A DNA stretch of 64,000 bases from Natronorubrum thiooxidans (GCF_900156475.1 NZ_FTNR01000007.1:1-64000); one strand, 5' to 3'; shown: positions 45,593-64,000, numbered from the stretch's first letter. The notes: generated by a model from the letters alone, not told the origin. Numbers and translations are program-made.

Positions 45593-47425
45593 TCACTGCT
45601 CGCGAACGTTGTACTGGACGTCGACGGTTGCGTCGCCACAGAGTTTGAACGCCTCGATATCGCCCTCGAACCAGTAGGCGTCGAGCCAGTTGCCAACGGC
45701 ACCGCGAACGGCTCGGCCCTCGACGACGTCTTCGTCGTCGATCGTGGCGTCTCGGTAGGTCGATTTGACAACGGCACCACTGGCCTCGAAGGAGTACGTG
45801 CTTGGCTTCTCAGCGTTCGTTCCGTCGATAACGAGTGCGTGCGGGAGCACCTCGTGGTCGCCGTAGTCGGCTGGATCGATCTCTTCGCCATCGAGGCTGA
45901 CTGTCGCCTCACCATCGATGAGCGTGACGTCTGTCAGTGCACCCGAAAAGCGGAATATCTGGCTCCCGTCGGTGACAGTACTCTGGCCTGTCGAACCGGA
46001 AACCGTCGTCGCTTCGTCTTCGGGATCATCGTTGCCAGCGAGTTCGATCGTCCCTTCGACCGTAATCTCGAAACTCGTCGGCGAGCCCTGGCCCTCGACC
46101 TCGAGGACGTGTGGGAGGTCCTCGCCGTAGTCGGCGGGATCGACTTCCTCGTCGTTGATTAGCACCGTTGCCGGCCCGTCGACGGTGAGTTCCTCGAGGT
46201 CGCCGGAAAAGCGGAACGCGTCTTTCCAGTCTGCGACGACGCCGCTTGCAAGCGAGTCTTCGATCTCGGCTTCGTCGTCGATCGTCGCGCCCTCGTAGTT
46301 CGATGGTTCGACGTCGCCGTCGACTTCGAACTCGTATCGGGTTACGTCCGAGCTGTCGCCGTCGAAGAGGATCACGTTCTCGAGGAGGTCCTCGTCCGCT
46401 TCATCGGCTTCGTCGTCGGTACTGTCCGTCCCGCTTGTCCCACTGTCGGCGCTTGCAGTTCCCGATGCAGCTGCCTCTGCCGAGGTCGGAACGCCGTCAG
46501 GGATCGAGAGATCCGGCGAGCTCGAGACAGCGTCATCGACGGAGACGGTCGAGCCGCTCGCACGCTGAATGTCTCCTCGGTAGCCGCCGCTCTGGAAGTT
46601 GACGCGGCCGGGCGAGCCGTTCGCGCCGGCGACGAGCGCGTAGGGGTATGGCCCGTCGGCGAAGTGTGAGTCCCGAATCGTCACGGTCCCGCCGTTCCAG
46701 ACCCAGACAGGTCGGCCGTTGGTCTCGGTGTAACCACCGTAGCCGGGGCCGTAGTCGGTGGTGTCGTTGTACGCGACGCAGTTTTCGATCACGTCGTCGC
46801 CGCTCGCACAGCGGAACGTCGTGACGCCGTTGTTCTTTCCGAAGCAGGTATCGAAGTGGACGCTGCTCGGTCCGGAGGCGGTGTTTGAACAGTAAAAGCC
46901 GTTGTTCGGGAACCCCTGGACGTTACAGCGGCGGAACGTCAGGTTCGCGTCGCTGCTGCGATGCATGAAGACCCCACCGGGGCCGTGGACGAAACTCGAG
47001 CCTTCCTTGGTTGCCCCATCGCCCATATAGATGTTTTCGAAGAGAATGTCGCCGCGACCAGCATTGATCGAGATCAGGAACTGATCGCCGCGATAGAGGC
47101 CTTTGAACCCGATGTTTCGAATAACCGAGTTCGCGCCTGTGACGTTCAATAGGACACTGTTGCCCGTCGAGACGTCGATGAGTTTGTTTTCGAACGTCTC
47201 TCCGCGACCGATGGTGATCACCTGTCCGCGTGCGCGGATGACGTCGTAGTCGTTTTCGTCGGCGCTTGCGCTCGTGCCGAACACCGTTGCTGCTGCAGTC
47301 GTTGCACCGGCCAACTTCATATACGAGCGCCGGTGGAGTAATCCCGAATTACCGCTCTCGTCTGCCGGCTGGTCCTCGCTGCCGGCAGATCGATTTTCGT
47401 TCAGTACCGAAGATTCGCGTGCCAT
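45593..47425 (-). CDS. Tat-exported beta-helix protein with three C-terminal repeat domains
   Basis: The 610-residue protein starts with a long n-region and Tat motif HRRSYMKLAG (RR at 32-33), cleaved near residue 55. Residues about 60-290 are a right-handed parallel beta helix (TIGRGETFENKLIDVSTGNS ... SVIRNIGFKGLYRG), as in pectate-lyase-like surface proteins. A Ser/Asp linker (about 300-345) leads to three 80-90-residue repeats, each with SFEITVEGTIEL-like and FRFSGALTDVTL-like strands and most with a DPADYG end. It is probably a cell-surface glycan binder or enzyme. It is paralogous to 47963-48940. Confidence 0.8.
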   Translation of the reverse strand: MARESSVLNENRSAGSEDQPADESGNSGLLHRRSYMKLAGATTAAATVFGTSASADENDYDVIRARGQVITIGRGETFENKLIDVSTGNSVLLNVTGANSVIRNIGFKGLYRGDQFLISINAGRGDILFENIYMGDGATKEGSSFVHGPGGVFMHRSSDANLTFRRCNVQGFPNNGFYCSNTASGPSSVHFDTCFGKNNGVTTFRCASGDDVIENCVAYNDTTDYGPGYGGYTETNGRPVWVWNGGTVTIRDSHFADGPYPYALVAGANGSPGRVNFQSGGYRGDIQRASGSTVSVDDAVSSSPDLSIPDGVPTSAEAAASGTASADSGTSGTDSTDDEADEADEDLLENVILFDGDSSDVTRYEFEVDGDVEPSNYEGATIDDEAEIEDSLASGVVADWKDAFRFSGDLEELTVDGPATVLINDEEVDPADYGEDLPHVLEVEGQGSPTSFEITVEGTIELAGNDDPEDEATTVSGSTGQSTVTDGSQIFRFSGALTDVTLIDGEATVSLDGEEIDPADYGDHEVLPHALVIDGTNAEKPSTYSFEASGAVVKSTYRDATIDDEDVVEGRAVRGAVGNWLDAYWFEGDIEAFKLCGDATVDVQYNVREQ

Positions 47426-47962
47426 GCAATCGGGTAATACGATACTACCACCATAAACTTTCTCTTCTATTTTACTTAAAATTTATAGACTTTAGATACT
47501 ATCTGAATGTCATTTGAAGCAATCATTCTATTTTCTTCGTGGAATTTTATATATCACAGCTGCCCGCCGTCCGCTCGAGTAATACTATATTACCCCTATT
47601 CTGGTCCCGAACGCTCCGCTAACTGAGCAGTAAGCTGCTCTTACGGACGGTTTTGATCCGTTCGTTCGCCCGGTTACTGATCGCGTGGCGCGGTGTCGTG
47701 GACTCGTCTCGAGGCGTGGCGCTTGCTGAGCGGTCACTCCTCGGAGAGCAGGCGGTGAAAAACAGCGCTCGTTCACATCCGCTAGCCACTGACCGCCACA
47801 CCATATCGAACGACGACCCGGCGAGGGTGTCTCTCGGTTCTGGTGGTCTGCGAGTCAAAATGCAGTGGAGTTCGAAGTGGAGGGAAAGGAGCGTCCGCAG
47901 CAGCGCGATCGCGTCAGCGGGAGGACCGATCGGTGTCCGTTACAGTGACCGCTTCGTTGCCG
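47426..47962. other. Gene-free stretch with promoter of the beta-helix gene
   Basis: A TATA box (ataaactt, 47453-47460) sits 28 bases from the ATG at 47425. A small inverted repeat gtaata-cta-tattac is at 47579-47593. The rest, up to 47962, holds no supported gene. Confidence 0.5.
47453..47460 (-). promoter_or_regulatory. TATA box of the 610-residue beta-helix gene
   Basis: aagtttat on the gene strand, 28 bases before the start codon. The same box and spacing occur before the paralogue at 48968. Confidence 0.6.
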
Positions 47963-48940
47963 TTAGTTGTCGCCAGCAGCTGCCTCTTCGGCGCTGGTCG
48001 GTGTGCCACTGGGGATGACCGCCTCGGGGGCAGTACCCGTGTCGCCCTCGAGTTCGACGGTCGAGCCAGCGTGTTCGGCGATGCCGGCTTGCTCGTCGTA
48101 GTCGGTATCGCGGAGCACGACGTTCGTTCCCTGGCCGTTTGCCCCGGCATCGATCGCGGTGTGGTTGCCGTTCATCTCGATCTGGCAGCCCTCGACTTCG
48201 ATCGTGCCGGGCGACCAGGCCCAGATTCCGCGGCCTGCATAGCCCTCGTTGTCGACGTACACGCTCGAGTTCGTGACCTTGCTGCCGGCCGTTGCGAGTC
48301 GGAAGTGCGAGACATAACAGTTGGCAGCGAAACAGCTGTCGATGTGGATCGTGCCGCCGCCTTTGTTACCGGGGGCAGAGCCGTAGATCGCGTTGTCCGC
48401 GAAGCCCTGGATGTTGACGTTCGTGAAGTCGATGTGGCCGGAGTGGTCGGGAGCAACCCAGAATGCGGTCTGTCCGTGACCGTTCGGATTGCCGTTGCCC
48501 GTACTCGAGCCATCACCGAGATAGACGTTTTCGACGGTACAGGTGCCGCCGCCGGTGTCAGAGATACCGAACGTGGCAGAGCCGGTCCCGGAGGTGTTCT
48601 CGCCTTTGAACCCGATGTTCCGGATCGTCCAGTCACTGCTGTGGGCGGTGATGACGATGTCTTGGCCGGTCGTCATGTCGATGAGTTTGTTCTCCCAGGT
48701 CTCACCGTCGCCGATGGTGATCGTCTGGCCGGCGGCTTCGATAACCTCGAAGTCGCCCTTGCCGGTAGCGCTGGACTCCTCGGAGTCGTCCTCGGCGGCG
48801 GTCGTGCCGGTTGCACCGAGAGTGGTTGCTGCAGTCGCGACCGCAGCGAGCGAGCGCACGTAGCTGCGGCGGCTTAATCCACTATTACGGTCTGCATTCG
48901 GCGTAGTGTCCGTCTCGGACGTACGGGGGTTCTGCGCCAT
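47963..48940 (-). CDS. Tat-exported beta-helix protein (shorter paralogue)
   Basis: The 325-residue protein has Tat motif SRRSYVRSLA (RR at 24-25), a cleavage region near TTAAEDD, and a beta-helix domain. That domain follows the 610-residue paralogue closely (TIGDGETWENKLIDMTTGQD ... WTIRNIGFKGENTS; DFTNVNIQGFADNAIYGS; IHIDSCFAANCYVSHFRLA). It ends in the same IPSGTPTSAEEAAAGDN motif as the other's IPDGVPTSAEAAASG but lacks the repeat domains. Duplication followed by loss or gain of the C-terminal repeats is likely. Confidence 0.82.
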   Translation of the reverse strand: MAQNPRTSETDTTPNADRNSGLSRRSYVRSLAAVATAATTLGATGTTAAEDDSEESSATGKGDFEVIEAAGQTITIGDGETWENKLIDMTTGQDIVITAHSSDWTIRNIGFKGENTSGTGSATFGISDTGGGTCTVENVYLGDGSSTGNGNPNGHGQTAFWVAPDHSGHIDFTNVNIQGFADNAIYGSAPGNKGGGTIHIDSCFAANCYVSHFRLATAGSKVTNSSVYVDNEGYAGRGIWAWSPGTIEVEGCQIEMNGNHTAIDAGANGQGTNVVLRDTDYDEQAGIAEHAGSTVELEGDTGTAPEAVIPSGTPTSAEEAAAGDN

Positions 48941-49627: not shown

Positions 49628-51418
49628 CTATTCTGCGCCGGAAACGGCGTACATTCGGAATTCGTCGTTCGAGAGTACCTTGTTCGCATCTGGGGAGGTC
49701 TCGAACTCCTCGAGTGACTCGTCGCTGTGATAGAGTTCCTGGTAGACCTCGATCTCGCGAACGAGGTCGTACTGGGTCACGATGAAGTAGTAGTCGATGC
49801 CGTTGTACGCCTCGCCGTAGTTGCCGGCTTCGAACGCGTCAGGATCGACGGTTCCGCTTGCGATTGTTGCGCCGCTCAGTGTTCTTTCCCCTTCGACGCC
49901 GTTGATCCCATGGTCGTATCGGTAGGGATCATAGCCCATCCCTGCATGGGGAATCTCGTCGTCTGCGTGTTCCAAGCCGGACTCGTAGCCGCTGAACTGC
50001 TGTGCGGTGACGTGTTGTCCAGGATCGTAGATCATGGGTGATGCGAACACGGTTATCAGCCCGAGGACGAGACAGGCACCGAGGCCGACTGCTGCGAGGG
50101 CGTTTCCGGCCGGTCGGGTACTGTAGTTCGAGAGCGTGCCAACGCCACGTGCAATGGCAACCCCCGCGAGGATCGTCAATATGACCGCGAGAAAGCCAAT
50201 CTGGCGGAACGCCATCGTCGGGGTTCCGATGAAGTAGACGGCGAACAGTCCAGTCAGCGGTACCATCGCGATTGCGAGATAGTTGACCACCGATTTCGTT
50301 TCGGGGTCGAGGCTAGTTCGACCAATCCACAGAAGCAGGATGAACACGCCGACGACGAGTGAGATCAGGGCCAACTCGAGAAACATCTTCACGAACAGTT
50401 CGCCGAGACTGCCGCCGATCGCTGCGAGCGAGGCCCCGCGCTGGTCGACCTCAGCACCACCACCGACGTCTTCGGTGAGGATACCGACAAGGAGTCCGAT
50501 CAGTGCGTCCCTGAACCGCTCATTGCTCGCTGCCCAGAGAGTAAAGACGGCTCCGAGGGTGATCGTGTGTGCATACGTCGTCGGGTGATCGAGGATCGGG
50601 TGGTCGTCGAAGCGGCGTCGAACGACGTACTGGACGACGCTGATCGTTCCGATCAGGATGACGACGTTGACCATCTGCTGTGGATGGACCAACAGGAGTC
50701 CGACCCCGGAGAAGACAATCAGGAGGCTAAACGGTGAGAGGCCAAGCGGCAGCCGCTCGATTGCGGCCCGGCGACGGAGATAGGCGACGACCGCGAAGAT
50801 GACGACGGGAACCAGAAAGAGGGCGTTCGAGTTCGTGTGCACGCCCATGTGTGTCGCGATGTTGTTGATCGGCAACACCATCCAGGAGACGATCGCTCCG
50901 ACTCCGATCGCCATACTGGTACCCGTCAGCTCTCGAACGACCAGTGGAACGAAAATCACGAACGGCACGAACAGGACGACCATGCTGAACAGGAGCCCGC
51001 GTTCGATCGGAGTACCACCCACGTAATGAAAGACCGACGCGATCGAGTGGACCGCGGGATAAAACAACTCGTGGGGGGCCAACGCTCCTGTGGTGATGTC
51101 TCTCGTCCAGCCCAGATGTGTGAGTGCATCGCCCATCCCGGAGAACCGATAGTTTCTGATCACCGGAAGACTGACGATTCCGGTGACTGTCATCGCGCCG
51201 AGTCCGATCCCGAGCGCCTGTTCGCGGCCACGACAGGTCAGTGCCGTACTGACGGCGATCGCCAGCGCGACGGCGAACGCGACCCACGTTATCGCCGGTG
51301 TGCCCGTATAGATCGACGGCTCGTAGCTTGTCGCCGGATTCGCCCTCGCGACGAGGAGTCCGATCGCGGCTGCGAGAAAGCCAACAGCGACCGTGACGTT
51401 GAGTGTCGACCGTTTCAT
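49628..51418 (-). CDS. Multi-spanning GT-C-like membrane protein A
   Basis: The 596-residue membrane protein has about 12 helices and a C-terminal extracellular domain (about 475-596). Early loop residues GMGDALTHLGWTRDITTGALAPHELFYPAVHSI resemble the acidic first loop of GT-C glycosyltransferases such as ArnT and oligosaccharyltransferases, where an Asp acts in catalysis. The paralogue at 59582 has HHDALTHLGWARALSEGTITPFDLYYPGIHTV at the same place. It is probably a lipid-sugar-dependent transferase of the surface glycan locus; the family is not formally named here. Confidence 0.75.
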   Translation of the reverse strand: MKRSTLNVTVAVGFLAAAIGLLVARANPATSYEPSIYTGTPAITWVAFAVALAIAVSTALTCRGREQALGIGLGAMTVTGIVSLPVIRNYRFSGMGDALTHLGWTRDITTGALAPHELFYPAVHSIASVFHYVGGTPIERGLLFSMVVLFVPFVIFVPLVVRELTGTSMAIGVGAIVSWMVLPINNIATHMGVHTNSNALFLVPVVIFAVVAYLRRRAAIERLPLGLSPFSLLIVFSGVGLLLVHPQQMVNVVILIGTISVVQYVVRRRFDDHPILDHPTTYAHTITLGAVFTLWAASNERFRDALIGLLVGILTEDVGGGAEVDQRGASLAAIGGSLGELFVKMFLELALISLVVGVFILLLWIGRTSLDPETKSVVNYLAIAMVPLTGLFAVYFIGTPTMAFRQIGFLAVILTILAGVAIARGVGTLSNYSTRPAGNALAAVGLGACLVLGLITVFASPMIYDPGQHVTAQQFSGYESGLEHADDEIPHAGMGYDPYRYDHGINGVEGERTLSGATIASGTVDPDAFEAGNYGEAYNGIDYYFIVTQYDLVREIEVYQELYHSDESLEEFETSPDANKVLSNDEFRMYAVSGAE

Positions 51419-52042: not shown

Positions 52043-53350
52043 ATGTCATCCATCGTTATCGACCACGTCAGCGCCGACGGCACGACCCTCGAGTCGGACG
52101 TTCGGACGTCCGCGGACCTCGAGCGGTTTTTTACGGACGAATCGTTTCGAACCGACTACGACGTCTCGATCGCGGACGTCCCCGAGGGGGTGCGTGCGAT
52201 CCCCGTCCTCGCACAGGTCTGTCCCGTCGCGTGGGCAAACGGGGCCGACGTCTACGTCGACGAGGTCGACGCGACCTTCGCGAGCGCCCTCGAGGACGTC
52301 AAGGAAACGCTGTGCTCGATGCACGACTTTCTCGAGGGAGGGACGCTGTATGCAAAGCGCACGATCGACGCCGACCCCGACGCGGGCGGTGAGAGCGGGC
52401 TACTTTTTACTGGCGGCGTCGACTCGACGTGTTCGTACGTCCGCCACCGCGATGAGTCACCGACGCTCATCAGCATTCGTGGCTGGACGATCACGCCCGA
52501 TCCAGCCGACGATGACGACTGGAACGCTCTTCGCTCGCGCGTCTCGTCGTTCGCCGCCGACCACGACCTTGAGACGGCGTTTCTCGAGTCGAACATGCTC
52601 TCGTTTCTCGCTCATCCGATGTTGCTGGCCCACTACAAGCGCCACGTCGACGGCGCGTGGTACAGCTCCGTCGGTCACGGCCTCGGGCTACTCGGTCTCT
52701 GTGCGCCGATGGCCTACGCTCGCGGTATCGAGGACCTCTACGTCGCCGCGACCCACTGGGAGGGGATCGACCTCGAGTGGGGGTCGCGGCCCGATATCGA
52801 CGACAACATCCGGTGGGCCGGCACGCAGTGTCACCACGATGGTCACGAACTCACCCGGCAGGAACGACTCGATGTCATCGCCGACTACGTCCGCGACGAG
52901 GAGCCGACACTCGAACTCCAGACCTGTAACGTCCGGATGGACGGCAACTGCGGCGAGTGTGAGAAGTGTTATCGGACTGCCGTCGGCCTTCGACTCGCCG
53001 GCCTCGAGCCAACGGCACACGGCTATCTGTTCGTCGACGAGGACTACCACGAGATTCGGACTGCACTCGAGGAGGGGCGGTGGGTCCTCGGACAGGACGA
53101 ACGCTACATGTGGGACGATATCCGCGAGCGCGCTCGCGAAACGGAGCCGACGTCGGACGCCGAAGCGGCGTTTTTCGAGTGGCTCGACGCGGCTGATCTC
53201 GGCGACCTGGTTTCCGACTCCTCGCCGCCGCTGTCACACCGACTACTCCGTGCGGGCGCGAGAAACGCGCCGGCTCCCGTCTACAACACGGTCTATCCCG
53301 CTTGGACGTCTGCGAAGTCGGGGCTGCGACGTGTTCGACCCGGCCGGTAG
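52043..53350 (+). CDS. PP-loop ATP-pyrophosphatase with QueC-like zinc site
   Basis: The 435-residue enzyme has the PP-loop LLFTGGVDSTCSY (TGGVDST at 123-129; the canonical SGGxDS starts with Ser) and a C-terminal cysteine cluster CNVRMDGNCGECEKCYRTA, close to the zinc motif of QueC. Such enzymes adenylate a carboxylate or amide and replace it with nitrogen. The substrate is unknown. ATG 52043 was chosen; the open frame extends to 51887 without family features. It stands beside an ATP-grasp ligase and a FemAB-like transferase, which suggests amide decoration of a sugar or cell-surface compound. Confidence 0.8.
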   Translation: MSSIVIDHVSADGTTLESDVRTSADLERFFTDESFRTDYDVSIADVPEGVRAIPVLAQVCPVAWANGADVYVDEVDATFASALEDVKETLCSMHDFLEGGTLYAKRTIDADPDAGGESGLLFTGGVDSTCSYVRHRDESPTLISIRGWTITPDPADDDDWNALRSRVSSFAADHDLETAFLESNMLSFLAHPMLLAHYKRHVDGAWYSSVGHGLGLLGLCAPMAYARGIEDLYVAATHWEGIDLEWGSRPDIDDNIRWAGTQCHHDGHELTRQERLDVIADYVRDEEPTLELQTCNVRMDGNCGECEKCYRTAVGLRLAGLEPTAHGYLFVDEDYHEIRTALEEGRWVLGQDERYMWDDIRERARETEPTSDAEAAFFEWLDAADLGDLVSDSSPPLSHRLLRAGARNAPAPVYNTVYPAWTSAKSGLRRVRPGR

Positions 53351-53463
53351 CGGACTCATTGCAACCCCGGCTTCGCCGTCACCACTGGCTCGTCGTCCGG
53401 CCGCATCGCTGCGCTCTCGTGTGGTGGTGACCGCAAAACTGCATCCGACCCGGCTGGCTGCGA

Positions 53464-53793
53464 TTACCGTTCGGGAACGCCGTAATCGACGTGGACGTTC
53501 GGAACGCTCGCGGAGTCCGGTGCTTCGACGCCGTTCCAGTCGACGACACGAACGTTCGTCACCTGGCCGGCAAAGCGAAACCGCTGGACGCCGACGTCAA
53601 TCGCGCCCTCCGCGACGCTGCCCGAGACGACCGTTCCCTCGGCGAACGGGTCGTGTGCGTCCATCTCAATCTCGCCGTCGACGGTGATTTCGAAGCTCGA
53701 GGGGACGCCTCGGCCGATAATCGTCACGAGGTTTGGGAGTGGTTCTGATTCTGTCGTGGCAACCTGGTTCTGTACCGGTGTGTCGCGTGCCAT
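53464..53793 (-). CDS. Small protein with one copy of the beta-helix repeat domain
   Basis: The 109-residue protein is nearly all one domain: LVTIIGRGVPSSFEITVDGE, TVVSGSVAEGAIDVGVQRFR, FAGQVTNVRVVDW. It matches the repeats at the C-terminus of the 610-residue protein (LEVEGQGSPTSFEITVEGT ... GSQIFRFSGALTDVTLIDG). It has no signal peptide, unlike that protein, but its first residues MARDTPVQNQ resemble MARESSVLNE there. Start 53793 is supported by a TATA-like cttat 26 bases upstream. It is either a free domain protein or the remains of a larger gene. Confidence 0.65.
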   Translation of the reverse strand: MARDTPVQNQVATTESEPLPNLVTIIGRGVPSSFEITVDGEIEMDAHDPFAEGTVVSGSVAEGAIDVGVQRFRFAGQVTNVRVVDWNGVEAPDSASVPNVHVDYGVPER

Positions 53794-53818
53794 ACTTCGG
53801 TAAGTCTGTCTCTGCGCC

Positions 53819-53826
53819 ATAAGCCT
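53819..53826 (-). promoter_or_regulatory. TATA-like box of the small repeat-domain gene
   Basis: aggcttat on the gene strand, 26 bases before the ATG at 53793. The bases just before the ATG (ttaccgaagt) resemble those before the two beta-helix genes. Confidence 0.45.
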
Positions 53827-53984
53827 TCCTGTCGACTTATTGGTAGCTATTCAAGAACTATTGGCACTCAGATACAGAACGACGAGTAAATAGTCATCCA
53901 AGATATGACGAACGCCGGAGAGGACAACCATCAGGTGACGGTCAGTGATCGACCGTTTTCGTCCCGTCGTCCGGTGAATCCGTC

Positions 53985-55187
53985 CTACCGGAGCGTCGAA
54001 AACGTGTTCAGGAGGTCGCGAACGAACGGGCGTGGATCGTCGCGGCTGAGGTAGTCGAATCGTGGTTGCTCGTAGAGCGATCGCGCCACGTCGATCACCG
54101 CCTCGCTCACCGATGGCTTCTCGACGAGATCGATCTCTTTCCTGAGCACCGAGTGGAGATACAGCAGTTCGCCACGGAGGAGGTGACCACCGATTCCCGG
54201 CCGGTAGTCGTGGTCGATCAGCTCCTGTTGGCCGTTTGCCAGCAACCAGTAGTAGTAGGGGAAATCCGACCCGGTCTGGACGGAAAACGGAAGCGACGAC
54301 CAGAACCGCGGGTTGACTTCCATGAGTTTGAACTCGCCGGTCTCCTCGTCGTGCAGGAACTCGACCATCGCCAGCCCGTGCCAGTCTAGCTCGTCGAGCA
54401 GCGCCAGGCCGGCTTCCTCGAGGGCCGGAATGTCGACCGATTCGCGAAACGCACTGGGGCCACCGGCGTAGCTGTAGCCCCGCCGCTGTCGGTGCTGGAA
54501 GGTTGCCAGCGGGTTCCCCTCATCGTAGAGCGCGAAAAACCCGTACTCTTCGGTCGTCGAGACGTACTCCTGGATCAGCGGCACGTGGTGCATCTCCGTG
54601 TAGACGTCCTCGGTAGTGGCGGCCTGTGTCGACTCGAGATACCGGGTCGATGGCGGCGCGACACAGGTTTTGGGCGTGTACTCGTCGATGTACTCGTCCC
54701 CGAGGATCGTATACCGTGGTTTGACGATCCACTCGCGCTTGCTATCGGGTTCCGTCGTAAACAGGGCCGTCTCGGGTGCGGCGACACCCGCTGTATCGGC
54801 AGCATCGAACAGCCGCATCCGGTCTTGTGCTCGTGCCAACGTCTCGAACGTCGGCCAGGGCGTACGCACGTGTTCTGCGAACTCGTCTCTGTACTTCGAG
54901 AGCACGTAGATATCCGGCTCGCGAACGGGGATGATCGTTCGCACGTCCGGGCGCATCGCAAGCGAGCGCAGTGCGTTTTTGTACGCCACGAGATCCTCGT
55001 GTGGCGACGGCACACGCACCGCCTCGTCACAGTATTTCGATTGAAACGCCGGGGTTGTTTCATCACTCGAGACGACGATCGTTCGGATGCCGCGTCGGCC
55101 GAGCGATCTCACACAGGCAACCGTACTCGGTGCGGAGATCCCCGGAACGACGACTGACTCGTTTCCGTTCCAGGCGGCGTTGTCCAT
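53985..55187 (-). CDS. ATP-grasp carboxylate-amine ligase
   Basis: This 400-residue ATP-grasp protein has an N-terminal Rossmann-like domain (VVVPGISAPSTVACVRSLGR), the ATP-binding lysine in REWIVKPRYTILGDEY, and the metal-binding end LAMVEFLHDEETGEFKLMEVNPRFW, with Glu and Asn of the EVNPR motif. It would join a carboxylate to an amine with ATP. Relatives act in polysaccharide and peptide tailoring (carbamoyl-phosphate-synthase-like group). It is on the same strand as the hydrolase and transferase that precede it, probably in one operon. Confidence 0.88.
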   Translation of the reverse strand: MDNAAWNGNESVVVPGISAPSTVACVRSLGRRGIRTIVVSSDETTPAFQSKYCDEAVRVPSPHEDLVAYKNALRSLAMRPDVRTIIPVREPDIYVLSKYRDEFAEHVRTPWPTFETLARAQDRMRLFDAADTAGVAAPETALFTTEPDSKREWIVKPRYTILGDEYIDEYTPKTCVAPPSTRYLESTQAATTEDVYTEMHHVPLIQEYVSTTEEYGFFALYDEGNPLATFQHRQRRGYSYAGGPSAFRESVDIPALEEAGLALLDELDWHGLAMVEFLHDEETGEFKLMEVNPRFWSSLPFSVQTGSDFPYYYWLLANGQQELIDHDYRPGIGGHLLRGELLYLHSVLRKEIDLVEKPSVSEAVIDVARSLYEQPRFDYLSRDDPRPFVRDLLNTFSTLR

Positions 55188-55301
55188 ACGACCACTCCAA
55201 TATCGGATAGAAATGTTATGACGTGGCTAACCCGACTCCCGGATGCGCTCAGTCGTCGGCTACAGTCTCCGCGATTCGTGACCGGACAGCGTGTCGCCGA
55301 C

Positions 55302-56924
55302 TCACTCGAGATAGCCGAGATCGGCGAGCCGTTTTTCGACCCCCTCGTCCGCCGTCTCAACCGATCGTGTGCCGTCGAATCGGGGATACTGCCGTGTGCC
55401 TGCCGGTTCGACACACGGAAGCGACTCGCCGTCCATCCGTTCGTCGACCGCCAGCCCGAACGTCGACAGAACCGTCGGTGCGATATCGAAGAGGTGTGCG
55501 TTTCCGACGCCAGCGTCGTGATCGATATCGTCGCCACGAGCCGCGACTGTTCCCTCGAGTTTGTGATTCCACGGCTCGCTCGGTGGGCCGAACGTCTCGT
55601 CTCGCAGCGTCGCCGACAGGAAGTGGTCGAAGTCGGCCGGGATGGTCACGATGTCGACGGCGTGCTCGCTTTCGGGGCCATGAAAGTACTCCTCTCGGGG
55701 CCGAACGGCCTCAAAAACGGGACGCCCGTTTGGTGTCGTCACCGATCGCAGGGCGTCGATGATCTCGGTCCGGACTTCCTCGTACTCTGCTGGCTCGACG
55801 ACACCATCTGGCTCGCGCCCCTCGAGATTTATCCGAACGCCGAGTTCGATCCGCGAGCGCACGTACGCCGTCGATTTGGGGAAGTCGACCTGTGTTGCCC
55901 CCGCGTTGACGAGTCCAGCGGGGGCGTACGCCGCGACGACCTCGTCGAGCCCGAGTCGCTCGAGGACGGCCCCGATACGCTGGCTCGTCACGCCGAACCC
56001 GGCGGCGGTCGCCATCGCACGCTCGGCGACGCCGGATTCGTACCGCGTGGTATCGTCGCCCTCCTTGAGATTGCCGTCACGAACCGTCGCCCAGTTCGGC
56101 ATCCCTCGGCCACCGCGTCTCGTTTTGACGAGCCCCGCGTTGCGGAGGTGCTCGTTGATCCGAAACTCCTGGCCGTCGTACGGCCCCATCCCGTGGTCGC
56201 TCGCGACGATCACGTTCGTCGGCGTCGTTGCCTCGAGGATCTCGCTGAGCTGTCGGTCGACCTCGCGATAGATCGACCGGATCGCCGCCTCGTCGTCCGG
56301 CCGCTCGTGGAAGATCGAGTCCGTCGCCTGGAACTCGACGAACCCGAACTCGGGCTCGTACTCATCGGCGAGGTAGCGAAACGCCTCTCCTCGCATGCGC
56401 ACGCAGTCAGTGTATGCCTGCCCGAGATCGGCCACATTCTTGTCGGGGTAGACGCGGTACTCGCCGATTTCCGCTCGGACATCCTCGAGCAGCCCTTCGG
56501 GATGACAGTCGGGATCCTCCGGGGCGGTGTAGCCTGGAATCAGCGCGCCATCGAACTCTCGTGGCGGATGCGTGACGGGGACGTTGACGACCGCGCTCGT
56601 GATCTCGTGGCGATCGAGCAGTTCCCACAGTGTTCGCTCGTGGACGTCGGTCGCGTTGACCACGTCCCAGTCGTAGCCGTCGAAGCTAAGAAAGCCGTAG
56701 ACGCCGTGTTTGCCGGGATTCATCCCCGTGTACAGCGAGGGCCACGCCGAGGCGGTCCACGGCGGGATCTGCGATTCCAGTGGCCCACTCGTTCCATCTT
56801 GATAGATCGACTCGAGGGTCGGTATCTCGTCAGCTTCGAACAGCGGTTCGAGTACGCGATCACAGGCGGCGTCGATCCCGACGAGCAGCGTGTGAAGGGA
56901 GGAGTCGTTGTTCATCATCGACAT
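55302..56924 (-). CDS. Alkaline-phosphatase/phosphodiesterase superfamily hydrolase
   Basis: The 540-residue protein has the type I phosphodiesterase/nucleotide pyrophosphatase layout: metal Asp in LLVGIDAACDRV, the nucleophile region PPWTASAWPSLYTGMNPGKHG, FQATDSIFH, VIVASDHGMGPYDG and a late GNAHLFDIAPTVL. It removes phosphate or nucleotide groups, possibly from lipid- or nucleotide-linked sugars. No signal peptide is seen, so it is cytoplasmic. It is encoded between the ATP-grasp and FemAB-like genes. Confidence 0.9.
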   Translation of the reverse strand: MSMMNNDSSLHTLLVGIDAACDRVLEPLFEADEIPTLESIYQDGTSGPLESQIPPWTASAWPSLYTGMNPGKHGVYGFLSFDGYDWDVVNATDVHERTLWELLDRHEITSAVVNVPVTHPPREFDGALIPGYTAPEDPDCHPEGLLEDVRAEIGEYRVYPDKNVADLGQAYTDCVRMRGEAFRYLADEYEPEFGFVEFQATDSIFHERPDDEAAIRSIYREVDRQLSEILEATTPTNVIVASDHGMGPYDGQEFRINEHLRNAGLVKTRRGGRGMPNWATVRDGNLKEGDDTTRYESGVAERAMATAAGFGVTSQRIGAVLERLGLDEVVAAYAPAGLVNAGATQVDFPKSTAYVRSRIELGVRINLEGREPDGVVEPAEYEEVRTEIIDALRSVTTPNGRPVFEAVRPREEYFHGPESEHAVDIVTIPADFDHFLSATLRDETFGPPSEPWNHKLEGTVAARGDDIDHDAGVGNAHLFDIAPTVLSTFGLAVDERMDGESLPCVEPAGTRQYPRFDGTRSVETADEGVEKRLADLGYLE

Positions 56925-57053
56925 TTCCGCGATACTGACCTTTCGTTATGACCTAGATTACTTGCAGGGCAGCTGTTCCTCGGGCGGAGACGACTGCTCT
57001 GGGCCACGAGTCAACCGTCGATGATCGCTTCAAAACGGCGGCGAAATCACGTC

Positions 57054-58064
57054 CTACTTGACGCTGTCGTACAGCGACGCGACCGTCCGCATCCCCCACG
57101 AGCCGTACTCGAGGCTGTAGTACGTCTCCAACGTGGGGTTGAACTTCGCTTTGTACCGGTTGATCCGGCGCGTGTCGGCCCCGACGAGGTCGTACGTCTC
57201 GAGGTCGCGCTCGAGGCCGTCGTTCATGATCGCCCAGTCGAGGAGGTCGTTCGTCGGCACGTCGACCTCGGCGTCGGTTCGCACCCCGCCCATCCACCGG
57301 CCCGTGGTGTCGTTGTACTCGAGGGCCAGAATGCCGCCGACGAACTCGCCGTCTACGCGGAGGGTGTACGGTCGCACGTGGCCGTTCTCGGTTCGGTCGG
57401 CGAGCTCGAGGACGAACTCGACTGGCACGCCGAAGCTGATATCCTGCGACTCGTACCGGTGTGTCACCTGCTCGTGGATCAGACGAATCTCTTCGGGGCC
57501 GCCGACTGTGACCTCGTAGGCGTCGTCGTCGGTGTTCCGGATGTTGTTCCGCGCGTCGCTGCTGAACGACATCAGGAGGTCCTCTTCCCCGACGGTGAGG
57601 TCGACGGCGTAGGTGTACTCCGGCGTCACGTCGTAGGCGTTCCATTTGAACGGCCGCGAATCCTCGAACGCCGTCGCCGTCCGGATGTGGCCGTATTTCG
57701 GATTCAGTTCCGACTCGATCCACTCGAAACAGCCGTCCATAAAACGCTGGCGGCGACGCTCGCGCTTTCGCTGTTTCAGCTTCCCCATGTTCAAAAACGC
57801 CGGCCCGAGATACGGCACTCGGAGGTGTGGGGGCGGAGAAAACACCGTCGTGACGAACTGCTTTCTGATCTCGAAGACGGGAAACAGCCCGACCGGCTCC
57901 TGCCCTTTGAACCCGATCAACGGGTGGACCTTCGCATCGGCGTGTTCTGCCTGGACTCGCAATGCCTCGAGTTCGTGACACAGCGTCCCCTGTGGCGACT
58001 GCGCGACGTAGCCGTTCCATCGCTCTAAGTCGTCGTCGGTCGCGATACGAACCTCGATGCTCAT
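57054..58064 (-). CDS. FemAB/GNAT-type transferase
   Basis: The 336-residue protein has the FemAB-like double-GNAT layout: RIATDDDLERWNGYVAQSPQ at the start, PVGLFPVFEIRKQFVTTVFSPPP in domain 1, and DLTVGEEDLLMSFSSDARNNIRN. Domain 2 has VDGEFVGGILALEYNDTTGR, and the chain ends with INRYKAKFNPTLETYYSLEYG (the KxxFxP signature). Such enzymes attach aminoacyl or acyl groups to glycans or lipids. ATG 58064 was chosen over the longer frame to 58190. It is the first gene of the run with phosphodiesterase and ATP-grasp. Confidence 0.85.
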   Translation of the reverse strand: MSIEVRIATDDDLERWNGYVAQSPQGTLCHELEALRVQAEHADAKVHPLIGFKGQEPVGLFPVFEIRKQFVTTVFSPPPHLRVPYLGPAFLNMGKLKQRKRERRRQRFMDGCFEWIESELNPKYGHIRTATAFEDSRPFKWNAYDVTPEYTYAVDLTVGEEDLLMSFSSDARNNIRNTDDDAYEVTVGGPEEIRLIHEQVTHRYESQDISFGVPVEFVLELADRTENGHVRPYTLRVDGEFVGGILALEYNDTTGRWMGGVRTDAEVDVPTNDLLDWAIMNDGLERDLETYDLVGADTRRINRYKAKFNPTLETYYSLEYGSWGMRTVASLYDSVK

Positions 58065-58314
58065 CTGTTCGACCACCCGGAGACGGATACTCGAGTGTTG
58101 TCGTCGGTTTCTCGGTGTCTCATACGGGATCGGTCGCCTTCCGGCCACTTTGTAAGCACCCTGTTTCCGTCGTTCTAGACCCTCGAGCACGGCTGCTGTT
58201 CAGTGACCGGTTCGATCGACCGTTGATGACGGGACAGCTATCGCTGTTGAAGAGTCGGGTATGGGACTAGTAACAATGATCCGATTGATCGTAATTCGGA
58301 TACCTACCGAATAA

Positions 58315-59343
58315 ATGAAAGACCTCCTGCTCCGAACGTTTCGGCCGTTTGCAACCGTTGGCCTCGGGCCCACGCTCGCCCGGATACCAACCGACCTGGT
58401 CGGTGTCGCCGGATTCGTCGCGGTTGCGACCCTCCTGCTTGCAGTTGTGGACGTCGCGTCACCGGTCGTTCGAGCCATCGTCGGGTTCCCGTTGTTGTTC
58501 CTCGCACCCGGGTATGCGATGGTCTCGGTCCTGTTTCCGCGCGAATCGCCGATCGAAGCGACGGATTCGACGCCGCTGATCGGACAGACACGGGACGTGA
58601 CCGACGTCGAACGCGCGGCACTCGCGTTCGGCCTGAGCGTTGCGCTCTTGCCACTTCTCGGACTCGTGATCGCCGCCCTCTCGTGGGGCTTTACGACGTC
58701 GACCGTGGTCGCTACCGTGGGCGGCTTTGTCTTGGTCGGTGTCGCCATTGCCGCAGTTAGACGGGCCCGGATCCCCCTTCAGGATCGATATCGGTTCCAG
58801 CTCGGTCGTCTACTCGGTGCCGTTCGCGCGGCCATCTTCGGGTCGGGGTCGGCTGCCCACACTGCCGTCAATGTCGTTCTCGTCGTCAGTCTGTTGCTCG
58901 CACTGACGAGCGTCGGCTACGCGCTTGTCTCCCCACAGCAGGGCGAACAGTATACGTCGCTGCAGTTACTCACCGAAGACGAGTCGGGTGACCTCGTCGC
59001 CGGCACCCCGTCGACTGTCGAACCCGGCGACTCAATCGCGTTTACCACCGGGATCGAGAATCAGGAAGGCCACGAGCAGGAGTACACCGTCGTCGTTCAG
59101 GAACAGTGGCTCGAGGACGGTGACGTCTTCGAGCGCACGGAGTTACAGCGAACCGAGCACAGTGTCAGTGCCGGCGAGACGCTCACCGTCGACCGGGATG
59201 TGACGCCGACCGCCGAAAGCGGCACCGTTCGGATTGCGGTGTTGCTGTACGACGATGCAGTCCCCGAGACACCGACCACTGACAACGCCTACCGCGATGG
59301 CTACTTCTGGATCGAGATCGGCGAGGACCTCGAGGATGTGTAA
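58315..59343 (+). CDS. DUF1616 membrane protein
   Basis: The 342-residue protein has four N-terminal membrane helices (about 28-50, 56-77, 100-125, 130-150), a basic loop, a fifth helix (about 185-205) and an extracellular beta domain (about 220-342) with VEPGDSIAFTTGIENQEG. This is the DUF1616 pattern found in archaeal polysaccharide and S-layer glycan loci. Function is unknown. It may help assemble or export the glycan. It is followed by the GT-C-like paralogue on the same strand. Confidence 0.85.
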   Translation: MKDLLLRTFRPFATVGLGPTLARIPTDLVGVAGFVAVATLLLAVVDVASPVVRAIVGFPLLFLAPGYAMVSVLFPRESPIEATDSTPLIGQTRDVTDVERAALAFGLSVALLPLLGLVIAALSWGFTTSTVVATVGGFVLVGVAIAAVRRARIPLQDRYRFQLGRLLGAVRAAIFGSGSAAHTAVNVVLVVSLLLALTSVGYALVSPQQGEQYTSLQLLTEDESGDLVAGTPSTVEPGDSIAFTTGIENQEGHEQEYTVVVQEQWLEDGDVFERTELQRTEHSVSAGETLTVDRDVTPTAESGTVRIAVLLYDDAVPETPTTDNAYRDGYFWIEIGEDLEDV

Positions 59344-59581
59344 ATCCGCTGGCGATTCACATCGCTGCCGATATCGTAACAACTGAAACGGGTTACACAC
59401 CAATCACACAGCTGTCGTGCGATCGGGCGTACACTGTCGTTGAGTGACTACTCTCGCTGAACACGGACTCCGTTTGTTCTCCGCTTACGGTCCGTTTTCT
59501 TCGATGACGGTATTGTTCGACTCACATACAGAAACCAGTGAATAACAAGGTCCGTTATCGGCCAACGTCGCAGCAGTTCGA

Positions 59582-61399
59582 ATGTCTCCTCAGTCAGCCG
59601 TCGATGACGACCTGTTTCGGAAGGTGGCGCTCGTGGTCGGATTCCTCGCGGTCGCAGGCAGTGCACTCGTTGCACGTGCCAGCCCAGCAACCGGGTACGA
59701 GCTATCGATTTACGCGATGACATCCCCGCTCGTCTGGGCGGGACTGGTGATCGCACTGTCCGTTGCGCTTACCGTTGCGTTTGTGCCGTCCTCGAACGCA
59801 GCTCATGTTCGAGGACATCAGTCACTCGCGCTTGTGCTCGGCGGTCTCGTGATGGCCGTCTTCGCTGGCCTCCCGATCATTAGGGGGTACAAGTATGTCG
59901 GTCACCACGATGCCCTGACCCACCTTGGGTGGGCGCGAGCGCTCTCCGAGGGGACGATCACGCCGTTTGACCTCTACTATCCGGGCATTCACACCGTCGG
60001 GGTAATGATCCACTCGGCACTGGGCATTCCGCTCACCCGTTCGATGCTCTTCGCCGTGCTTCTCCCGGTGATCGTCTTCTTGGTGTTCGTGCCGCTATGT
60101 GTCGGTACAATCGTGCCCGAGCGTCGTGCGGTCGTGATCGGCGCGTTCGCCGGGTTCCTCCTGTTGCCAATCACGACGATCTCGATGTACCTTGAGGCGC
60201 ACGCAATGACTCAGGCCGTCCTGCTGTCGGCTGTATTCCTGTATCTGTTCACGAAGTATCTCCGCACCGATCGCGGCGGCTCGTACACGGCGGTTGGCGT
60301 CGCCCTCCTCCTAGTCTCGATGGCGCTGGTGATCTACCATCCACAACTCGTCGCCCACCTCATCGTCGTCTTGTTGGGGATTTCGGCGATTCAATTTCTC
60401 GCCCGTCGCGTGTCGACCGGAAGCCGGATTGCAAGCCAGACGACCGTGTACGGACAGACCGGGTTCCTGATCGTCCTGTTCGTGCTGTGGACGGCGACCG
60501 ACGGTTTTTTCTCTGATATTGCCCTCCACTTCGTCGGCTCCGCAGTCGAGTTTCTTTTGACCGGTGTCGGCGGTGCCGGCGACTCCATCGCGACCCAGGG
60601 CGCGTCGATCCAGGGAGCCGGCGGCAGTCTGCTCGAGATTTTTTTCAAGCTCTTTTTCCCGCACTTGTTGTTTACGCTCATCACCGCCGTGGTCGTGCTC
60701 GGGGCGCTCGTCCGCTGGAATCGCTTCGACGACGTCCGTGCCGAGACGTTGTACTTCACTGTCGGCCTCGTCGGGCTCACCGTCCTCTTCGGCGTCTACT
60801 TCGTCACTTCGGGCTCGATGATGCACTTTCGTGTGCTCGGACTGATGATGTTGTTCGCGACGATTATTGGCGCAATCGGCATTCACCACCTCACGGCAGC
60901 TGACAGCACAGAGTCACGTTCCTGGTTTGCCGGCTCAAGGCAACCGCTACTCGCCGTCGGCTTCGCGGTGCTGCTGGTCCTCTCGCTCGCGGCTGTCTTC
61001 CCCTCGCCGTACACGTACAATGCCTCAAGCCACGTTAGCGAGTCGACACTAAATGGCTATGCGACGGCGTTCGATTCCAGCGACGACGACGTGGACTTCG
61101 TTGGCCTCCGCAACGGGCCGAACCGGTACGACGACGCGGTCAACGGCAACGAGGAACGAATGCGGTTCCACACCGATGTCTCGGACGACGCGGTCAATGA
61201 GGGACTGCCCGGACAGTTGGACGACGATCGCTACCTCGTGTTGACCCAATCCGATTACGACCGCGAGGTGATCGCCTACAACGAACTCCGCTACAGCGAA
61301 GCCGACCTCGACTCGCTGTCGGACCACCCTGACATCGATCACATCCAGTCGAACGGCGAGTTCGACATGTACTACGTTCACGCCGAGACGGCGGCATAA
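59582..61399 (+). CDS. Multi-spanning GT-C-like membrane protein B
   Basis: The 605-residue paralogue of 49628-51418 has the same topology: helices from residue 13 on, the first acidic loop KYVGHHDALTHLGWAR, the middle GAGDSIATQGASIQGAGGSLLEIFFKLF, and a C-terminal soluble domain ending FDMYYVHAETAA. The C-terminal pieces LVLTQSDYDREVIAYNELRYS and FIVTQYDLVREIEVYQELYHS of the two proteins align well. It is likely a polymer ligase or glycosyltransferase. Together with the flippase at 61739 it mirrors the arrangement near the first flippase. Confidence 0.78.
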   Translation: MSPQSAVDDDLFRKVALVVGFLAVAGSALVARASPATGYELSIYAMTSPLVWAGLVIALSVALTVAFVPSSNAAHVRGHQSLALVLGGLVMAVFAGLPIIRGYKYVGHHDALTHLGWARALSEGTITPFDLYYPGIHTVGVMIHSALGIPLTRSMLFAVLLPVIVFLVFVPLCVGTIVPERRAVVIGAFAGFLLLPITTISMYLEAHAMTQAVLLSAVFLYLFTKYLRTDRGGSYTAVGVALLLVSMALVIYHPQLVAHLIVVLLGISAIQFLARRVSTGSRIASQTTVYGQTGFLIVLFVLWTATDGFFSDIALHFVGSAVEFLLTGVGGAGDSIATQGASIQGAGGSLLEIFFKLFFPHLLFTLITAVVVLGALVRWNRFDDVRAETLYFTVGLVGLTVLFGVYFVTSGSMMHFRVLGLMMLFATIIGAIGIHHLTAADSTESRSWFAGSRQPLLAVGFAVLLVLSLAAVFPSPYTYNASSHVSESTLNGYATAFDSSDDDVDFVGLRNGPNRYDDAVNGNEERMRFHTDVSDDAVNEGLPGQLDDDRYLVLTQSDYDREVIAYNELRYSEADLDSLSDHPDIDHIQSNGEFDMYYVHAETAA

Positions 61400-61738
61400 C
61401 TGACGCGCTGTCGGTACACCGACGAACCGATCGCGACACTTCGATTTTCGACCGTCATTAATTCACAGCGGTCGGTACTCGAGAGTAACTTTGCGAGGGG
61501 CGATCGGCCGCGGAGACTTCCGCCCCGAAATCGCGGAACGGGATCGTTACCCGCCTGGAAGCTGCTTGATAACAAAGTCCCTTATCCGGGTTTCCCAACA
61601 TAATGAGTCAGCGACAGCCGTCTCCCCCTCGACCGGCTCGTCTTCGTTTCTTCGGTCATCACACCGCTCGAGTTGCGCTCTTGATGGCCAATCGAGCGGG
61701 ACTAACCATGTCGCTGCTCCGGAGGTGAGCGAGCCGAT
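61400..61738. other. Gene-free stretch
   Basis: It lies between the GT-C-like gene and the second flippase. A weak promoter-like stretch lies near 61580-61605. Nothing else is supported. Confidence 0.45.
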
Positions 61739-63298
61739 ATGGTAGACCGAGAGCACGAACTCTCGGCGCTGCTTTCGAGTGCGGCGCTGGTCATGCTCGG
61801 TGGAATCGTGAGTACGGCTGCCAATCTCGGCGAGCGGATCGTCATCGGGCGACTCCTCTCGCCGGACGCCTACGGGGAGGTCAGTGTCGGCCTCGCGTTG
61901 TTGATGTTCACGCTGACGGTTGCACTGGCCGGCTGTCCACAGGGCGTCTCACGGTATATTCCCCGGTATGAGACGACCGCGGACCGGCGCGGGGTCTGGA
62001 TCAGCGGCCTATTGATCGCGGCCAGCCTCTCGGCCGTGTTCGGCGGCGGGATGTTTGTTTTCGCCGATGCCATCGCCGAACAGTTGTTCGAGACCGACGA
62101 GGCGGTGTCGTTCATCCGACTGCTAGCGCTCGCGATCCCGTTCACCGCTGGCTTCCGGATCGCCGTCGCCGCGATTCGGGGGTACGAAAACACGATCTAC
62201 CGAACGGTTATCCAGAACTTCCTTGACCCCTTCGTTCGTATCGCGCTAATCGCCCTCCTGATCGTCGCCGGAATGGGAATCGTCGCGGCCGGTGCCGCCT
62301 ATCTCCTCGCGGCCGCACTGACGCTCGTCGTCTCGCTAGCCCTTCTGCACCGGCTCATTCCCCTTCGCGGCCAGTACCACACCCACGTCCGGGAGCTGTT
62401 TACCTTCTCGCTCCCGCTGGTCGTCTCGAGCGTGATCGGCGTTTTGCTCATCCAGACGGACACGCTGATGCTCGGTTATTTCCGCAGTTCCCTCGAGGTC
62501 GGGCTGTACAACGCGGCGTACCCGCTCGCGACTGGACTGACTGTCGCGCTATCGGCCTTTGGCTTTCTCTACCTGCCGATCGCCTCGCGCCTCGATGCGG
62601 ACGGCGAGCACGACGCGATCAACGACATCTACGCGACGTCGACGAAGTGGGTGTACGTTATCACGTTTCCGCTCTTTCTCCTGTTGGTTGTCTTCCCGCG
62701 GGACATGATCTCGCTGTTCTTCGGCGCGTCTTACACCGACGCGGCGCCGGTATTGCCGATCCTCGCGGCGGGCTTCTTCCTGAGCGTCGCCGCCGGCCGG
62801 GACCGGGAGACCCTCTCTGCGGTCGGCGCAACCACCTGGATCGCCGCCGGGAACGTTGTCGGCCTCGTCGTGAACGTCGGAATCAACCTCGCGCTCATCC
62901 CGAGGTACGGCTTCATGGGCGCCGGAATCGCCTCTGTCACCTCGCTGGTCACCGTCCACGCCGTCATCTGTGGTATCCTCGCGATGAAGTACGATATCAC
63001 GCCGTTCTCCCCGGAGGCACTCCGGAGCTACGTTGCTCTTCCCCTGATCTTGCTGCCGCTCGCGGCGGTCCTCTCCTCGTGGGTCACAATATCGCTCCTG
63101 ACACTGCTGCCCGCCCTAATCGTCGTCGGCCTCACGTCGCTCGTCGTGATCGGCCTCATCGGTGGCCTCGAACCGGACGACGTCGTCGTGATCGACCTGC
63201 TCGAGGACAACACCGGCGTCACGATTCCGTACGTCCGCCGCTGGATGCCTGACGACGAGGCGAGCGGCGAGCAGGCCGATCCCTTCTTGGCGGACTGA
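61739..63298 (+). CDS. Oligosaccharide flippase (second copy type)
   Basis: The 519-residue MOP-superfamily protein has about 14 helices, the N-terminal GGIVSTAANLGERIVIGRLL, TFSLPLVVSSVIGVLLIQTD (start of the second half) and a conserved YGFMGAGIASVTSLV. It differs from the flippase at 44012, so the locus may export two glycans or two forms. A polar C-terminal tail is cytoplasmic. It ends 3 bases before a long dyad at 63301. Confidence 0.9.
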   Translation: MVDREHELSALLSSAALVMLGGIVSTAANLGERIVIGRLLSPDAYGEVSVGLALLMFTLTVALAGCPQGVSRYIPRYETTADRRGVWISGLLIAASLSAVFGGGMFVFADAIAEQLFETDEAVSFIRLLALAIPFTAGFRIAVAAIRGYENTIYRTVIQNFLDPFVRIALIALLIVAGMGIVAAGAAYLLAAALTLVVSLALLHRLIPLRGQYHTHVRELFTFSLPLVVSSVIGVLLIQTDTLMLGYFRSSLEVGLYNAAYPLATGLTVALSAFGFLYLPIASRLDADGEHDAINDIYATSTKWVYVITFPLFLLLVVFPRDMISLFFGASYTDAAPVLPILAAGFFLSVAAGRDRETLSAVGATTWIAAGNVVGLVVNVGINLALIPRYGFMGAGIASVTSLVTVHAVICGILAMKYDITPFSPEALRSYVALPLILLPLAAVLSSWVTISLLTLLPALIVVGLTSLVVIGLIGGLEPDDVVVIDLLEDNTGVTIPYVRRWMPDDEASGEQADPFLAD

Positions 63299-63300
63299 TA

Positions 63301-63376
63301 CGGACTGTTGTAGTCAATTACCGCCGATCACCGACCCCGTCTCTGGTGATCGGCGGTAACTCGGTACAACAGACCG
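63301..63376. terminator. 76-bp nested inverted repeat between converging genes
   Basis: The arms mirror about 63338.5: cggactgttgta (63301-63312) with tacaacagaccg (63365-63376), one mismatch, and ttaccgccgatcacc (63318-63332) with ggtgatcggcggtaa (63345-63359), perfect over 15 bases. It lies between the convergent flippase and GT61 genes, so a two-way terminator is the simplest role; a miniature mobile element is the alternative. Confidence 0.75.
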
Positions 63377-63462
63377 TATGAGCGGTGCTGGATCAGATCA
63401 TTACCGAGAACGCCGATCTAAGTACGTGTCCGCGCGAAGAAATTGAATCGAGTCCGTCGGCC

Positions 63463-64000
63463 TCAGTCGGAGAGCTGTCCCGGCTGCTCGCGAGCCAGTG
63501 CGGCCTCGAGTATCGCCTCGAGATCGGCGGTGTCGACGTACATGTCGTTGTTCGGTCGTTCGCAGTCGAGGTAGCCGTACCAGCCGCCGACCTGCTTTGC
63601 GAGCATGAAGAAGATTCCGTTGACCCGATCGCGCGGCATGAACTCGACGACAGCGGCGTCGTCGGTATGGATCAGGTCCGTCAGTCCGGCGCCGTGGGGC
63701 GCGACGACGCAGTCGGCCTGGGCAAACAGCGCGACCGTCTCTTGGACGCTCATCTCGGTGAGCCGGTACGACTCGAAGCCGTAGTCTTCGAGGACGTTGC
63801 CGACGGCCTCGTCGTTGATGACGCGCCGGGTCGCCGCGTCGGTCCGGCTGATGTAGACCCGCTCTGAGAAGCGCGACGTGTCGACGGCCTCGAGGGCGTC
63901 TTCACGCAGCTGGCCGCGAAGCCACTCGTGGGAGAACGGAGACGGGTTCGGCGGATCGATCTCTCGGCGCATCGACGGTACAACGAGCCGATCGACCGTA
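63463..64000 (-). CDS. GT61-type (DUF563) glycosyltransferase, C-terminal part
   Basis: The 178 residues from the window edge read RLVVPSMRREIDPPNPSPFS and so on, then YISRTDAATRRVINDE and LTEMSVQETVALFAQADCVV, followed by APHGAGLTDLIHTDDAAVVEFMP. APHGAGL with the following acidic residues is the GT61 hallmark. The N-terminal half lies outside the window; the frame is open through 64000, so the methionine at 63972 is internal. It probably adds xylose- or GlcNAc-like units in the same glycan pathway. Confidence 0.85.
   Translation of the reverse strand, partial: TVDRLVVPSMRREIDPPNPSPFSHEWLRGQLREDALEAVDTSRFSERVYISRTDAATRRVINDEAVGNVLEDYGFESYRLTEMSVQETVALFAQADCVVAPHGAGLTDLIHTDDAAVVEFMPRDRVNGIFFMLAKQVGGWYGYLDCERPNNDMYVDTADLEAILEAALAREQPGQLSD

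Follow-up and report, generated by a model that had tools for sequence, protein, structure and literature searches.

We analyzed a 64-kb stretch of DNA, hereafter the window, which is part of a 225-kb contig of the haloarchaeal genus Natronorubrum (Natrialbaceae). A 207-kb replicon of N. aibiense, listed as a plasmid, is syntenic with it, and our key protein, PPL, is 92% identical between the two. The features relevant to the analysis are these:

42450–43619 and 63463 onward: glycosyltransferases flanking the four-gene interval
44003–45478 and 61739–63298: flippases flanking the four-gene interval
45593–48940, minus strand: RHP1 and RHP2, exported proteins with a twin-arginine-type signal and a beta-helix-like fold (judged by eye)
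49628–51418, minus strand: TM1, a multi-helix membrane protein without a family match, divergent from PPL
52043–53350, plus strand: PPL, a 435-aa extended QueC/QatC-like PP-loop protein (key gene)
52409–52426, plus strand: PP-loop TGGVDS, PPL residues 123–128
52778–52801, plus strand: WGSRPDID motif, PPL residues 246–253 (from alignments)
52925–52969, plus strand: zinc-type tetracysteine of PPL, C295, C303, C306 and C309
53464–53820, minus strand: 118-aa protein resembling the C-terminal domain of RHP1
53985–55187, minus strand: ATP-grasp protein, a PylC-like 'carboxylate--amine ligase', convergent with PPL; EVNPR at 54306–54320
55231–64000, no strand: the window's share of a 23.1-kb glycan island that continues to contig position 78358
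55302–56924, minus strand: type I phosphodiesterase (alkaline phosphatase superfamily; PF01663, 118.7 bits), the first island gene
57054–58064, minus strand: FemAB-like GNAT (Acetyltransf_6) protein; KAKFNP at 57135–57152
58315–63298, plus strand: island genes for DUF1616, the membrane protein TM2 and the flippase MOP2 (ORF and family calls)

The first-pass annotation had assigned four ORFs in this region to PP-loop, ATP-grasp, phosphodiesterase and FemAB-like folds and had placed them in a glycan locus. ORF, family and structure comparisons bear out both position and fold, and flippases and glycosyltransferases indeed lie on both flanks. PPL is encoded on the plus strand and the other three on the minus strand, so that PPL and the ATP-grasp gene converge. 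Elsewhere in the window, the positional equivalent of 38816–39523 in N. aibiense is annotated as an archaetidylserine decarboxylase of a protein sorting system, a match in gene order only.

The PPL family is currently annotated just as 'hypothetical protein', and PPL has no match among Pfam, NCBIfam and PADLOC models. A sequence search of the PDB returned nothing usable either, the best hit being a QueC at E = 0.09. In the absence of a family-model match, the likeness to QueC was established through structure and profile comparison. PPL consists of an N-terminal domain, a PP-loop core and a helical C-terminus; its AlphaFold model, made with 43 aligned sequences, has a pLDDT of 91.1 and a pTM of 0.89. 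With this model as a query against PDB, Foldseek returned QatC as the top hit, with the alignment covering the entire chain (E = 4.6e-6); QueC from B. subtilis came third, at a TM-score of 0.68 when normalised to QueC. TM-scores to QatC are low (0.36) and the rmsd is high, so what the full-length match reflects is a common arrangement of segments along the chain, not a rigid structural fit. By profile comparison, PPL was independently linked to the QueC core with a probability of 97% (E = 5e-11, a single comparison) and to a segment of the QatC N-terminal extension with a probability of 92%. PPL is thus an extended QueC-like protein that lies under all family thresholds.

The sequence motifs show both what PPL retained and what it lost. 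TGGVDST begins at residue 123, and all 87 homologues retain G125 and D127; most homologues have [ST]GG[VI]DS, the QueC form being SGGxDS. The cysteines are arranged as C295-x7-C303-x2-C306-x2-C309, with C303 present in 86 of the 87 homologues and the other three in all. This motif is one residue shorter than the QueC zinc motif, C(x)8CxxCxxC. The PP-loop and the QueC-type cysteine cluster noted at first pass are therefore not only present but conserved, and with dozens of genomes sharing them, the observed signatures cannot be due to chance. PPL shares with QueC (PF06508) the PP-loop core, the zinc tetracysteine and profile homology, but it is twice as long and under the Pfam cut-off: PPL itself was unmatched, and 9 of 33 relatives gave weak matches only. 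The QueC catalytic motifs YxQxHxxE, VPxRN and YPDC (PMC13329287) are all three missing from PPL in the profile alignment. Alignments put the PPL family segment WGS[RH]PxID opposite YPDC of QueC and STRTTHP of QatC. In QueC-like enzymes, a Tyr/Asp pair reads 7-deazaguanine, with threonines instead in QatC (PMC13279940). The pair has no recognisable counterpart in the PPL alignment, where WGS[RH]PxID is found; opposite the QatC threonines PPL aligns W-G-S before [RH]P, a placement that comes from sequence/profile alignment. Since the nucleobase-pocket motifs of QueC are lost, the PPL substrate is probably not 7-carboxy-7-deazaguanine, and deazaguanine was downgraded as a candidate substrate.

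QatC is the closest relative in overall design. The two proteins have in common a length of about 430 aa, an N-terminal extension with a W...DxxF region, the PP-loop core, zinc cysteines and the helical C-terminus, and QatC is the best Foldseek match over the full length. However, identity is 14%, WGS[RH]P replaces the T-T-HP segment, and the PADLOC QatC model did not match PPL, while 2 of 10 relatives matched it weakly (E = 0.002 and 0.056). The contexts also differ: QatC belongs to a defence system (qatABCD), whereas the neighbour families listed around PPL are glycan genes, with none of qatA, qatB and qatD noticed among them. WbpG and other N-acetyl sugar amidotransferases resemble PPL in their PP-loop, zinc cysteines and role in surface glycan synthesis, but their cysteine order is different. 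The N-proximal CxxC of their CxxC(x)n[GN]xCxxC signature is absent from PPL, NCBIfam models were unmatched, and the two represent separate branches. Finally, DUF6395 (PF19932), a family without known function, gave weak matches in 11 of 33 PPL relatives and none stronger. Taken together, these comparisons place PPL in a new and as yet unnamed QueC/QatC-like branch of a known superfamily, one with a wide distribution.

How widespread is this branch? Among 292 haloarchaeal genomes searched, PPL was found in 77, and within Natrialbaceae in 68 of 75. In a scan of GTDB contigs, which sets a lower bound on the spread, the matches listed included Paenibacillus, Cohnella, Galbibacter, Geothrix and Massilia as well as Chloroflexi, Coriobacteriia, Bathyarchaeota, ANME-1, Methanobrevibacter and others; Bacillota, Bacteroidota, Chloroflexi and Bathyarchaeota are among the groups represented. 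In bacteria and other archaea, the neighbours of PPL are mostly glycosyltransferases, flippases and polysaccharide pyruvyl transferases. With a pyruvyl transferase-like family set expanded from a single annotated seed, 14 of 25 loci outside Halobacteria had such a gene no more than four genes away from PPL, and in 8 it was the direct neighbour. Several loci contain two or three clustered PPL paralogues, and on a Priestia plasmid two PPL copies lie beside genes for UDP-glucose dehydrogenase, galU and pyruvyl transferase. The same Priestia megaterium plasmid (locus L170, 9956–12566 and 18558–19874) also encodes a DUF6395 protein, bringing the QueC-like paralogues of this single glycan locus to three. 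We found no paper on PPL in polysaccharide loci or on DUF6395, and polysaccharide or glycos- wording occurs nowhere in the full text of a 2026 survey of the QueC family.

Natrialbaceae maintain a conserved gene order around PPL. A gene of the TM1/TM2 family is located immediately upstream and divergent in 39 of 44 loci, RHP2 is present in 40, and RHP1 and F3 (a phosphodiesterase of another subfamily) in 36 each. Farther along are genes for a polysaccharide deacetylase-like protein, a Gfo/Idh oxidoreductase, a DUF362-like protein and an HpnA-like epimerase; the last three (F4, F9 and F5) accompany PPL as a trio across haloarchaeal families (L043, L078). A nucleotide-sugar dehydrogenase occurs near PPL in 5 of the 44 loci within the stretch examined. 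One of them, L069, encodes a UDP-GlcNAc 3-dehydrogenase-like protein, a DegT aminotransferase and a hexapeptide acetyltransferase alongside this dehydrogenase. Two loci have the order ATP-grasp, PPL (two copies in L079, one in L080), glycosyltransferase, nucleotide-sugar dehydrogenase, DUF354.

The ATP-grasp protein matches PF02786 (22.6 bits, cut-off 19.8). It shares the fold and the E-x-N-P-R metal-binding motif with PylC-like carboxylate-amine ligases, but it is not PylC, falling narrowly under the PylC-like_N cut-off (26.7 bits against 27). The EVNPR reported earlier corresponds to residues 290–294, and E[VI]NPR was seen in all nine homologues checked. The gene adjoins PPL in eight loci, always convergently: five in Natronorubrum and three in genomes from a second haloarchaeal family. 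Many haloarchaea have a homologue, which in most Natrialbaceae is located elsewhere in the genome.

The phosphodiesterase and the FemAB-like protein behave as a pair of their own. D18, T57, D202, H206, D243, H244 and H454 of the phosphodiesterase are conserved in 43 homologues, and from what is known of the superfamily we take them to be metal ligands. The FemAB-like label needs correction: the protein comes close to the FemAB model PF02388 (22.8 bits) without reaching its cut-off of 24, but its actual family is the GNAT-type PF13480 Acetyltransf_6 (67.3 bits, cut-off 22). The KxxFxP signature noted near its end is there as KAKFNP, residues 305–310 of 336, and is kept in close homologues. Among the 150 matches listed for the FemAB-like protein, at least 90 lie within 2 kb of a phosphodiesterase homologue, a rate that is a lower bound, and all 84 pairs within 1 kb are on the same strand. 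The two genes form a pan-haloarchaeal pair that occurs away from PPL in scores of genomes. Consequently, we consider it unlikely that the phosphodiesterase serves the PP-loop enzyme. A second such pair, with reversed gene order, is found beyond the window on the same contig (C30 96476–99114, L211).

Comparison with two Natronorubrum relatives, G271 and G116, revealed where the inherited units end. Homology spans PPL and the ATP-grasp gene up to about 55230–55257 and restarts at 78359, the stop of F3. The intervening 23.1-kb island (55231–78358) is missing at the same site in both relatives. It begins with the phosphodiesterase, the FemAB-like protein, DUF1616, TM2, a flippase and GT61, and ends with a second FemAB-like protein, a DUF354-like protein and a gene with a UDP-GlcNAc 2-epimerase-like start (by eye). 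The island thereby separates the ATP-grasp gene from the remainder of the conserved PPL locus. The uninterrupted order in many genera favours insertion here rather than loss in the relatives. In Natrinema (G291), a similar island begins 27 bp past PPL and has the same kind of last gene before F3, which suggests that the site is a hot spot for the exchange of variable glycan islands.

The four-gene interval therefore straddles the island boundary and comprises two separately inherited units, not one module. It is true that all four genes are grouped in three Natronorubrum genomes (this one, G150/N. sulfidifaciens and N. aibiense) and that three of them are co-directional. However, the boundary falls between the ATP-grasp and phosphodiesterase genes, the quartet was not found outside Natronorubrum, and phosphodiesterase–FemAB pairs exist independently of PPL. 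We accordingly rejected the single amide-tailoring module put forward at first pass, which we regard as very improbable. What does find support is a link between the PP-loop and ATP-grasp genes, along with the fold calls and the surface-glycan setting. The boundary also illustrates how adjacent genes in a variable glycan locus get mistaken for a single pathway.

What might PPL do? PP-loop ATP-pyrophosphatases of this superfamily use ATP to activate a carboxylate or an amide, and the outcomes include a nitrile or amide (QueC), a conjugate (Cap9) and an amidine (WbpG). QueC-like enzymes have been known from the synthesis of tRNA and DNA bases; a role in conjugating proteins during phage defence was added in 2025. 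In Methanococcus maripaludis, the gene aglU is required for a sugar acid to receive threonine, so amino-acid amides on archaeal glycans have a precedent. N-acetyl sugar amidotransferases such as WbpG offer a precedent from the superfamily itself (PMC13329287, PMC10607449). Given the loss of deazaguanine recognition and the glycan context of the lineages examined, sugar-acid amidation is the most economical reading. Most probably, PPL tailors surface glycans by forming an amide at a carboxylate at the expense of ATP. From the observed families, conservation, gene linkage and island boundary we infer the following reactions and substrates. The TGGVDS loop would bind ATP, and PPL would adenylate the carboxylate of a sugar precursor, for which a uronic acid is the likeliest candidate. 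Ammonia or another amine would then attack the adenylate to give an amide, with release of AMP and PPi. The ATP-grasp ligase probably adds another amide to this glycan, for instance between an amino acid and a sugar acid, while the phosphodiesterase and the FemAB-like protein would act jointly, as a separate unit, on the island's own product. We put the probability of this whole proposal at about 0.45. Amidation is supported by sugar-acid supply genes near PPL in several loci (Natrialbaceae, L079, L080 and the Priestia plasmid), and the PPL/ATP-grasp link by its recurrence in a second haloarchaeal family. On the other hand, we identified neither a glutaminase nor an ammonia-channel partner near PPL, the examined flanks lack a sugar-acid gene at several PPL loci, and Gfo/Idh, DUF362-like and HpnA-like epimerase match no known sugar-acid route. 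It also counts against the proposal that PPL and the ATP-grasp gene converge instead of forming a single operon and that the ATP-grasp homologue of most Natrialbaceae lies elsewhere.

The full-length structural match to QatC, including the N-terminal extension, raises the question of whether PPL instead couples an acid, be it a 7-deazaguanine or a different one, through its carboxylate to an amine on a surface protein or amino sugar. Cap9 couples 7-carboxy-7-deazaguanine to a protein N-terminus (PMC13279940), a canonical QueC in the genome means that precursors exist, and the deacetylase-like gene present in most Natrialbaceae PPL loci could expose amines. Yet neither the Tyr/Asp pair nor the QatC threonines are recognisable in the PPL alignments, no conserved qatB-like partner was noticed, and the surroundings are glycan rather than defence genes; we consider such a role unlikely. 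We judge it just as unlikely that PPL forms an amidine or acetamidino group on a di-N-acylated sugar as WbpG does. The shared superfamily (PMC13329287) and a gene set in some PPL loci resembling the route to UDP-2,3-diacetamido uronic acid, the WbpG type of substrate, would agree with it, but PPL lacks the CxxC...CxxC signature and any NCBIfam match, and the NDP-sugar dehydrogenase of that set was seen, within the stretch examined, in only five of the 44 Natrialbaceae loci. A regulatory or degenerate PPL, devoid of catalysis and retained in glycan loci for other reasons, is highly improbable. TGG instead of SGG in the PP-loop of many haloarchaeal members might hint at it; however, G125, D127, three cysteines and the W and R residues show little or no variation from one domain of life to the other, consistent with an active enzyme.

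Sugar-acid amidation by PPL thus stays our preferred reading. We also entertained a bolder idea, to which we give slightly less credence than to the QatC- and WbpG-like roles: PPL might found a class of enzymes, common to archaea and bacteria and diversified into tandem paralogues inside individual glycan loci, that employ QueC/QatC-type chemistry to ligate an amine or acid other than ammonia or CDG to surface glycans. If true, this would mean glycan conjugates new to description, possibly nucleobase-like. The polyglutamine wall of Natronococcus (PMC4243693) was set aside as the amidated polymer, since PPL occurs in ordinary polysaccharide loci of many bacteria. That archaea and bacteria share a large QueC-like branch associated with surface glycans suggests yet another field of application for these enzymes and makes amide tailoring of surface polysaccharides accessible to testing.

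The membrane and exported proteins of the locus deserve a brief comment. TM1 and TM2 (59582–61399) are related large membrane proteins, neither with a family match, and structure prediction for TM1 from its single sequence failed (pLDDT 43). RHP1 and RHP2 had no match in a Pfam search. The 118-aa protein next to PPL, which adjoins it in nine loci, is similar to RHP1 (46–50% over about 70 aa in relatives); possibly, it is a surface domain cut loose from the C-terminal repeat domain of RHP1.
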